Source: a virus
DNA: 45,460 bases
IMG/VR virus record: IMGVR_UViG_3300027969_000159
Coordinates: 1 to 45,460 of that record
Reading direction: 5' to 3' (one strand)
The position numbers and the translations under genes were made by a program. Within the stretch, counting starts at the first letter, position 1; each line of letters starts with the position of its first letter. Below the pieces are notes generated by a model that had not been told where the DNA came from, did no database searches, and saw only the letters and a list, made by a program, of their open reading frames with translations. Shown here in pieces: positions 19,300 to 21,054 of this stretch.

Positions 19300-19638
19300 T
19301 TACACGTTCCGTTCAAAGTGCGGGCAGTCTACCAAGGAGCGGAAGTTACCGCCCCAACGGTTCTTGGGGTGCAAGGTTTCCCAGTACGCGCCAAGCGGAG
19401 CCAGAATCCCCTTGTCCCAAATGATTTTGCCATCACGGAAGAAGTTAAGGTCGGCAGCGCAACGCTTGAGGTGGATGGAGTTCATGGTCTTGCTGCGGCC
19501 TGTCTTGAAGTAGATAGCTTGCTGCTCCGGTGTACGGGCAAGTTCCCCGCCGGTAACCATAAAACCTTGGTCTGTGGCGTACTGCACCAGCTTGCAGAAG
19601 TCCAGCAAAAACGCTGCTTGTTCGGTACTAAGACTCAT
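19300..19638 (-). CDS. Endolysin, M15-type (VanY/L-Ala-D-Glu-like) peptidase
   Basis: A 112-residue zinc peptidase predicted to cut the peptide stem of peptidoglycan and lyse the host. The zinc ligands fit H56 and D63 in NSIHLKRCAADLNFF, and H107 in DCPHFER; WGGNF (95-99) is the usual substrate-side motif. The length is that of a bare catalytic domain without a wall-binding module, usual for Gram-negative hosts. No signal peptide, so it depends on a holin. I chose the ATG at 19638, which has AAGGGG 7 nt upstream; an in-frame TTG seven codons earlier is less likely. The first codons overlap the upstream 66-residue gene by 11 bp. Confidence 0.85.
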   Translation of the reverse strand: MSLSTEQAAFLLDFCKLVQYATDQGFMVTGGELARTPEQQAIYFKTGRSKTMNSIHLKRCAADLNFFRDGKIIWDKGILAPLGAYWETLHPKNRWGGNFRSLVDCPHFERNV

Positions 19639-19828
19639 GATTACCCCTTTTTTGAACAACTAGGTCAATGCACGTTGCGTCTACCGTCGCACCCATATCA
19701 ATATAGTCCTGCTTCTTTGACCGCACGGCTGTCATGCATTGCTGCCTGTCAGTGTAGTGGGTAAGCTGTTGCAGGAACTCGCAGTGTGCGTTCATGCAGA
19801 TGTAAAGGACGGGAATGAAGATGCTCAT
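19628..19828 (-). CDS. Small Cys-containing protein in the lysis cassette
   Basis: A 66-residue protein with a hydrophobic start (MSIFIPVLYICMNAHC) and four cysteines in all within its first 31 residues and one near 54. It overlaps the holin-like gene upstream by 4 bp and the endolysin downstream by 11 bp, so it is firmly in the lysis operon. The N-terminal segment could be a membrane anchor or export signal; there is no standard lipobox. Cysteines suggest a periplasmic disulfide protein. A spanin or lysis-control role is possible but not shown. I recognise no family. Confidence 0.55.
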   Translation of the reverse strand: MSIFIPVLYICMNAHCEFLQQLTHYTDRQQCMTAVRSKKQDYIDMGATVDATCIDLVVQKRGNHES

Positions 19829-20055
19829 TTTGGTTCCTCTTCTTTCTCGCCGTGGGACAGTTTCACGCCAGCCAGCAGTCCGATAAAGCCGCCAACAATA
19901 GTCTGGAAAGCAGGGCTGATGAGCTTGAAGATTTCGCCGTTGTCCACGATTGGGTCAAACAGACCCGCCATAAGTACCGCGACCATTCCTATGATGACAA
20001 CGCACAGCGTAAAGCTGACCATTAGGGTCACGAAAAACGTCAGCTTGGCTTTCAT
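19825..20055 (-). CDS. Holin-like membrane protein, two transmembrane segments
   Basis: A 76-residue protein with two hydrophobic helices: about 6-31 (TFFVTLMVSFTLCVVIIGMV) and about 44-63 (SPAFQTIVGGFIGLLAGVKL). The tail is short and charged (HGEKEEEPK). Size, two-helix layout and charged C-terminus fit class II holins, and it sits between another holin-type gene and the endolysin. It overlaps both neighbours by 4 bp (ATGA). It may act as holin or antiholin beside the 170-residue protein upstream. Assignment rests on topology and context. Confidence 0.65.
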   Translation of the reverse strand: MKAKLTFFVTLMVSFTLCVVIIGMVAVLMAGLFDPIVDNGEIFKLISPAFQTIVGGFIGLLAGVKLSHGEKEEEPK

Positions 20056-20564
20056 TTTTTGCTTCTCATGTCTGCCAGCTTCTCAATGGTACGTCCGCCG
20101 AAGTACGCACCCATGATGAGCATGCCCCAATTCCCCAGCAGGGTTACATAGGATTCATTGGCGTTGTAGCCATACGCGCTCATCATGGCAAACACGGAGT
20201 ACATAACGAAGATAGCAATCAAGCTCATGGGACGAATGTTCTTTGACAGCCAAGAGTCGGATGTCATGTCTGCCTGCCAACGGTCTGTGATGTTGTCGGC
20301 ATCGGCTTGTGCAGCCTTTGCAAGCAGTTCGAGTTCAGCCATTTCCAGTTTGGCTTTCTCGATGCCCAACTCAATCAGGCGCTCTTCATGCTCATACTGA
20401 AGCTGCCGCAACTTTTCAACGTCGGCAGGAGTGGGGCTGTCGGGTATTTTGATGCCGAGCGTGTTCTCTACAACTTCCTTGCCTTTGGCCTGAATAGCAG
20501 AGGACAGCAGCCCCAAACCGTTTTCAGCCAGTGTTCCCAGCAATGCACCGATGATTGGAATCAT
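20052..20564 (-). CDS. Holin of the 3TM/GTA type
   Basis: A 170-residue protein with an N-terminal hydrophobic, amphipathic helix (MIPIIGALLGTLAENGLGLL), a charged coiled coil in the middle (about 50-90, rich in E, K, L) and two strong transmembrane helices (about 110-130 and 138-157: SLIAIFVMYSVFAMMSAYGY, then LLGNWGMLIMGAYFGGRTIE). This order matches the three-segment holins found in gene-transfer agents and many phages, ending in the typical YFGGRTIEK. It should form the inner-membrane lesion that frees the M15 peptidase. It starts one codon into the upstream stop (TAATG). Confidence 0.75.
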   Translation of the reverse strand: MIPIIGALLGTLAENGLGLLSSAIQAKGKEVVENTLGIKIPDSPTPADVEKLRQLQYEHEERLIELGIEKAKLEMAELELLAKAAQADADNITDRWQADMTSDSWLSKNIRPMSLIAIFVMYSVFAMMSAYGYNANESYVTLLGNWGMLIMGAYFGGRTIEKLADMRSKK

Positions 20565-21054
20565 TAGAAGCCCCTATTTGTGATAACGTGAAATGCAACA
20601 CTGACCAATGGAACGATGATAGCGGAAGCACCGGTAATCCAGAGCGTGTTCATAATGATTGCCACCTTCATTTCCTTGTCCTTCTGTTTGCGCTCCGCTT
20701 CTTCTCTTTCCAGCGTGTTGCGCTCTTTAATCAGCCTTGTCCGCTCTGCCATCATCTCCTCCCATACCGGGGCGTTGCCGCTGTAGAAGAGTATGTCCTT
20801 CAATTCCTTTTCGTGCTCCCGAAGCGCCTTGGATGCCAGTGCAATTTGGAGTGCTTCAGAACTAATTTGTGCATTCGTCTTACCTATACTAGCAATCCGC
20901 GCTTTACTGCTTGCTAGGTGAACCGTGTCCGCTGCTTGGTAAAAACTGCTGAATTCTTTATATAGGCTGTGGATATCCTTACCAAGAGCGACTGCTTTTT
21001 TATACCGGCTACCGCACCTTGAGCAAGGGCAAAAGCTGTAAATGGGTCAATCAC
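20564..21054 (-). CDS. Membrane protein made by -1 frameshift (about 163 residues)
   Basis: The downstream frame alone gives only a 79-residue ORF from a TTG without a credible SD. Reading further upstream, the same frame is open and protein-like back to 20995, where it meets a second ORF in another frame that starts at GTG 21054 (AGGTG just upstream, 1 nt after the preceding stop). The zero frame encodes MIDPFTAFALAQGAVAGIKK (20 codons), crosses A_AAA_AAG (21001-20995) and, unshifted, stops at 20914 as a 46-residue peptide. A -1 shift joins it to AVALGKDIHSLYKEF and onward: helical, a charged coiled coil, and one C-terminal transmembrane helix (about 132-158). The fused N-terminus reads like one I recall as a single frame in related phages. 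Function unknown; next to two holins, a lysis or membrane role is plausible. A one-base assembly error or a mutated gene is the alternative. Confidence 0.65.
20935..21020 (-). promoter_or_regulatory. Candidate programmed -1 frameshift signal (dnaX-like)
   Basis: Three elements in the correct order on the - strand: an SD-like AAGGTG (21020-21015) 13 nt before the slip site; the heptamer A_AAA_AAG (21001-20995), in the right register with zero-frame codons ATA AAA AAG; and, after an 8-nt spacer, a perfect 8-bp stem CTTGGTAA (20986-20979) with TTACCAAG (20942-20935), 36-nt loop. E. coli dnaX uses the same heptamer with an upstream SD and a downstream stem. Confidence 0.65.

Follow-up and report, generated by a model that had tools for sequence, protein, structure and literature searches.

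How is a gene read when its two parts lie in different reading frames and no start codon seems to serve the second? This question is raised by a gene on the minus strand of an IMG/VR virus record of 45,460 bases, which was analysed at its full length and is here called the window. An earlier note, made from the sequence alone, had proposed that a short ORF from a GTG at 21054 and the -1 frame ending at 20564 are joined by slippage at a heptamer, A_AAA_AAG (21001-20995), and this two-frame layout was confirmed at these positions. The -1 frame picks up with GCA, the G at 20995 being read twice, and the shifted product has 163 residues in total. The relevant features, all on the minus strand, are as follows.

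20914..21054, minus strand: 0-frame ORF from the GTG start at 21054 to a TAG stop at 20916-20914 (46 aa, the unshifted product)
21015..21020, minus strand: Shine-Dalgarno (SD)-like AAGGTG upstream of the heptamer, present in the window
20995..21001, minus strand: slippery heptamer A_AAA_AAG, within the codons ATA AAA AAG (Ile18-Lys19-Lys20)
20564..20995, minus strand: -1 frame part, residues 21-163 of the shifted product, ending at a TAA stop at 20566-20564
20990..20994, minus strand: spacer of 5 nt from heptamer to stem
20975..20989, minus strand: 5' arm of the putative stimulatory stem; 20990 and 20930 also pair in some sequences
20931..20946, minus strand: 3' arm of the stem, with a bulged C at 20934 and the covarying pair 20987-20933 (U-A or C-G)
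20052..20564, minus strand: downstream holin-like gene (phrog_3427, lysis, E 1e-12; sub-threshold GTA_holin_3TM)
19300..19659, minus strand: M15-type endolysin of the same cassette (phrog_465 endolysin; Peptidase_M15_4, 1.2e-06)

The gene thus heads a holin/M15-endolysin cassette, with the slip at codon 20. The holin-like gene comes next downstream, and between it and the M15 endolysin lie the gene for a small hydrophobic protein and then a 66-aa ORF; on the upstream side there are a small gene whose function is unknown and a large fibre-like gene with repeats. A location among holins, rather than in a tail-chaperone pair, had been regarded as unusual, and the position next to a holin and an endolysin was confirmed. 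The 66-aa ORF (19628-19828) overlaps the start of the endolysin gene in another frame; it occurs in some related loci (58-80% identity) and is absent from others, and could represent a module that is swapped at the position between the holin and endolysin genes. Scanning the window for Rfam families and for tRNA genes gave no matches.

On comparative evidence, and without RNA or protein data, we conclude that the gene is very likely expressed by programmed -1 ribosomal frameshifting.

Conservation and origin of the slip site

Searching IMG/VR with the fused protein as query gave 457 relatives. A degenerate frame-changed pattern that permitted several Ile/Val and Lys codons occurred in at least 119 stretches, and the in-frame form of the same motif in five. 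Although the pattern permitted other codons, ATAAAAAAG (AT-A_AAA_AAG) was exact in 269 of 269 frame-changed loci. These include some contigs that were fetched twice; after removal of duplicates, 91 distinct full-length genes remained. Distances at fourfold-degenerate sites among these genes have a median of 0.49 and a maximum of 0.89, with ATA AAA AAG invariant throughout. Synonymous variation in the heptamer codons is zero, whereas elsewhere in the gene Ile is encoded by ATT, ATC and ATA 621, 457 and 226 times (ATA, 17%) and Lys by AAG and AAA 709 and 400 times (AAG, 64%). A slip site should have the form X_XXY_YYZ in the correct zero frame and be conserved, and this one satisfies both demands; its invariance in 91 distinct homologues argues against chance.

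The frame change could instead reflect a sequencing or assembly indel, or a pseudogene, a concern that arises because the site is a homopolymer in a metagenome-derived record. However, six A's are present in 269 loci from many samples, a second contig (L002) is identical to the window across 10,488 bp, and both halves of the gene are under purifying selection. The same exact heptamer in so many loci and in 91 divergent genes is not a sequencing error, and this explanation, all but excluded, was rejected on the comparative data. The finding of seven A residues, which would have placed the gene in one frame and refuted the proposal, was not made in any member of the clade.

All of the approximately 55 more distant relatives (47-59% identity) are single ORFs. 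Uninterrupted homologues include HMO-2011 gp60, Roseobacter phage CRP-6 gp34, CRP-345 gp45, a Limnohabitans phage DC31 protein and others. The frame-changed genes cluster together in the protein tree, and the only exception inside their group is L171/L172. The nearest in-frame clade (L335, L338-L342) mostly reads GGA ATA AAA AAA GCA, with one extra A, which indicates that a one-base loss created the site once, giving AT A_AAA_AAG CA. Comparison therefore shows that the arrangement has a single origin and that the ancestral gene was uninterrupted. As the earlier note had suggested, homologues were aligned as a check: the heptamer and the frame change are kept throughout the clade and the stem described below in nearly all members. 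Relatives with an uninterrupted frame and neither heptamer nor stem had been named as a second ground for refutation. Only distant relatives fit this description, and their lack of an in-frame heptamer or stem is consistent with a derived frameshift, not with an error.

The exceptional L171 and L172 read ATC AAA AAG GCC, so that the heptamer is lost and no shift is required there; the heptamer is thus not indispensable. Both carry an extra base between codons 5 and 6 (CCT TTT C GTT; L171:1615-1701 and L172:4514-4600, minus strand). Relative to the ATG their gene is still disrupted; reading it would take a +1 shift at UUU_C or, alternatively, initiation at a UUG that overlaps the upstream stop codon.

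The phage group comes mostly from lakes and comprises tailed, bacteria-infecting phages. A host search in GTDB genomes gave 50 pattern matches with no relative among them, and comparison of the structural region with GenBank phages revealed no near DNA match.

The shifted protein as the selected product

Third-position variation follows frame 0 before the heptamer and frame -1 after it. The fused protein is collinear over its whole length with that of the uninterrupted relative L295 (55% identity), and the junction, IKKA in one and IKQA in the other, is ungapped. Both frames are therefore constrained and the joined product is homologous to a real protein, as expected of a coding sequence that spans the two.

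Internal initiation in the -1 frame was considered and rejected for residues 21-72. From its upstream stop to the slip site, this frame lacks a start codon in nearly all sequences. Past the slip site, 85 of the 91 genes have their first start no earlier than codon 73 (the window has it at codon 85), and the frame change is therefore required for residues 21-72. In frame 0, the stop after the heptamer is one codon on in 25/91 genes and 26 codons on in 66/91, and the length of this tail switched about nine times on the tree. The first 20 codons are conserved, also in the in-frame relatives, and the 0-frame tail beyond the heptamer is not. The two products from one start, of 46 and 163 residues, that had been proposed for the window were confirmed in their coordinates; the 46-residue form is not conserved, being 22 aa in 25/91. 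Because the unshifted tail is not conserved, the full-length shifted protein is the selected product, a result that the comparison shows. The short product (22 or 46 aa) was rejected as a conserved product as far as its tail is concerned.

An AlphaFold2 model of an in-frame relative (28 sequences; pLDDT 79.6, pTM 0.57) is predicted to be all-helical, with helix 1 at residues 4-23 and a long C-terminal helix at residues 95-160. The most hydrophobic part of the window protein, about residues 131-158, falls within this long helix. A ribosome that does not shift would therefore make little beyond helix 1. Searches of the PDB by sequence and by fold of the in-frame relative gave no significant match, and a viral fold library gave matches only to unnamed phage proteins. 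Pfam returned no match above cut-off for the frameshifted gene, which thus does not qualify as a member of a holin family; the PHROG match of its protein is a family of unknown function (phrog_32327).

It is also conceivable that the unshifted peptide of 22-46 aa, which contains the first helix, has a function of its own, for example as an inhibitor of the full-length protein, with the shift setting the ratio of the two. In favor of this view, at usual shift rates most of what is made would be this peptide, which ends close to where predicted helix 1 ends. Against it, the tail varies from 1 to 26 codons with about nine switches, and the conservation of residues 1-20 extends to the in-frame relatives and thus calls for no explanation of its own. 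We consider this possibility unlikely.

The downstream stem and the mechanism of the frame change

A perfect 8-bp stem (20986-20979 with 20942-20935) had been noted, starting 8 nt past the heptamer. It was confirmed, but as the core of a larger helix of 15-16 bp with one bulge. Three more outer pairs (20989-20987 with 20933-20931) lie across the one-base bulge, which corrects the first pair to 5 nt past the heptamer, and inward the pairing continues to 20975/20946. The helix consists of GCU followed by CUUGGUAAGGAU, paired with GUUUUUACCAAG, the bulged C and AGC. In the window, the hairpin folds at -18.8 kcal/mol (z = -2.85), and 1 of 200 shuffles was equally good. Over 16 pairs in 56 distinct sequences, 94.2% of cells are paired, a value that falls to 36-57% if one arm is displaced by 1-3 columns.

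Further support comes from the third bases of the Ala23 and Ala41 codons (sites 23.3 and 41.3), which pair in the stem (20987-20933). They are C-G in 46 sequences, U-A in 40 and mixed in none, the sole perfect association between different codons among 14,535 variable-site pairs. The tree for this comparison used no codons other than 45-163; on it, between 7 (starred branches) and 10 changes were counted, every one of them affecting both sites at once. Block recombination could mimic such covariation, but other pairs 40-70 nt apart are not comparably tight: excluding pairs that involve Ala23 position 3, none exceeds a normalised mutual information of 0.38. Given this perfect covariation, the stem is not a chance fold, and its conservation is shown by the comparison. 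The conserved stem is absent from the in-frame sisters (z from -1.4 to 1.3), whereas the median z of the frame-changed set is -1.84.

The evidence has limits. Only one pair has changes on both sides, and pairs 21-62 and 23-60 are broken in 10/56 and 20/56 sequences. Five of the 91 genes (L213, L277, L180, L281 and L095) keep the heptamer and lack a comparable stem (z about 0). These five have TTG GGG where others have CTT GGY. Frameshift-stimulating structures generally begin 5-8 nt downstream of the slip site (PMC4066793), and apart from these five genes the stem meets this expectation. Codons 33-37 (AAA GAA TTC AGC AGT; window 20945-20959), on the loop side of the hairpin, show very low synonymous variation beyond what the stem accounts for; a further RNA interaction such as a pseudoknot is possible.

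The upstream SD-like element fared differently. A motif of this kind lies in the stimulatory range in only 42/91 homologues, short of the conserved stimulator that a dnaX-type signal would have, and the AAGGTG of the window is therefore probably incidental. The dnaX-like triad of SD-like element, heptamer and stem is thus incomplete: the heptamer and the stem held, and AAGGTG is present in the window without being conserved. The central proposal, that reading of the gene beside the holin moves to the -1 frame at the heptamer, ahead of a stem, is supported by comparative evidence, while translation across it has not been observed.

In E. coli, few motifs shift as readily as A_AAA_AAG (PMC4066793; PMC5009743), and with a structure at a known spacing ribosomal slippage fits best. 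In the mechanism we propose, ribosomes would start at the GTG or ATG and reach AAA AAG of A_AAA_AAG, in most members with the hairpin 5 nt ahead. A fraction of them would re-pair both Lys tRNAs one base back and produce a 163-residue helical protein with a C-terminal hydrophobic anchor; those that do not slip would terminate 1 or 26 codons past the heptamer. The arrangement arose once, by the loss of one A from ATA AAA AAA GCA, and selection has retained it. Ribosomal slippage as the mechanism, its efficiency and its role are all inferred, as there are no expression or proteomic data and the tRNA-Lys set of the host is unknown.

Transcriptional slippage would yield an identical protein. In this alternative, some transcripts gain one A when the polymerase stutters at the six-A run, so that a single frame spans the gene; the A-run does sit at the junction, and the sister clade has exactly one more A. 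However, bacterial transcriptional slippage has been described for runs of nine A/T (PMC5009743), and the run here is six A's and never longer in 91 sequences, the cap expected if A_AAA_AAG itself matters. Transcriptional slippage also has no need for a conserved RNA stem 5 nt downstream. The short run and the presence of the stem make it very unlikely.

A second alternative accepts ribosomal slippage and denies it any regulatory role: a one-base deletion was rescued by a shift-prone site and tolerated, so that the frameshifting is corrective only. This remains possible. The ancestral gene was in frame, a one-base loss made the site, and the unshifted tail is not conserved. On the other hand, although gaining one base would be enough to close the frame, the clade shows no simple reversion; in L171/L172 the frame is restored at the site, but the gene is newly disrupted at another place. 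Moreover, a covarying stem was gained and kept, and the in-frame relatives lack it.

Proposed role in the lysis cassette and relation to known systems

Under the preferred reading of programmed ribosomal frameshifting, the most likely and most economical role is restriction of the dose of the full-length protein, although this is an inference. The gene that follows is a holin homologue in most loci examined, and in 77/91 genes the -1 frame stop overlaps the next ATG as TAATG or TGATG (TAATG in the window). Consequently, only slipping ribosomes would reach the holin start by elongation. Slipping may thus also gate holin translation, its frequency helping to set the holin level and lysis timing. 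This inference is unproven because the holin start has a possible SD of its own (AGGGG) upstream. A bolder possibility is that holin synthesis and the time of lysis are set by slip frequency, which might itself respond to the physiological state of the host as infection nears its end. An SD-like AGRGG is common inside the last codons of the frameshifted gene (window 20564-20580). By eye, an antisense tRNA-like sequence was seen directly past the stop of the in-frame gene in L335, L339 and L345 of the nearest sister clade, at the place where a holin gene would otherwise lie.

These data make a strong comparative case that, in an abundant group of freshwater phages, a gene of the lysis cassette is frameshifted. 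The origin is traced to a single base loss, the hairpin is missing from in-frame relatives, and a testable link leads from recoding to lysis timing. A natural experiment on how a frameshift becomes fixed is provided by the in-frame sisters, the frame-changed clade and the sub-lineage that is disrupted in another way. In practical terms, ordinary gene calling will split the gene across all these genomes.

Frameshifting in tailed phages is established mainly in tail chaperones and coat proteins. We found no report of a frameshift in the lysis cassette of a dsDNA phage in the open-access literature searched; coverage was incomplete and absence is not proven. The homologous phrog_32327 proteins (HMO-2011 gp60, CRP-6 gp34, CRP-345 gp45 and the DC31 protein), several of them encoded beside lysis genes, are likewise of unknown function; unlike the gene studied here, they are uninterrupted ORFs without a frameshift.

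The closest parallel is E. coli dnaX, which has the same heptamer, a hairpin a few nucleotides downstream, and a short and a long product from one start. The phage gene is a different gene and lacks a conserved SD-like element. In addition, the short product of dnaX is a functional subunit, whereas the short tail of the phage product is not conserved. Orfs A and B of the IS3 family (IS911) also use A_AAA_AAG with a downstream structure, but there two transposase ORFs are joined, whereas the phage gene was ancestrally whole until the loss of a base split it at codon 20. The tail assembly chaperone G/GT and T7/T3 gene 10 are likewise late genes of tailed dsDNA phages with a -1 frameshift; in these cases it adds a C-terminal extension to an already complete protein, whereas in the phage lysis module a shift at codon 20 is needed for nearly all of the protein. 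An early frame change needed for the full product is also found in prfB (RF2), where the shift is +1 and occurs at a stop codon. The MS2 lysis gene shares the tie between frame changes and lysis gene expression, but MS2 is an RNA phage in which the lysis gene overlaps the coat gene. Overall, -1 frameshifting with A_AAA_AAG and a hairpin is already known; what is new is the gene family, with its unusually clear origin.
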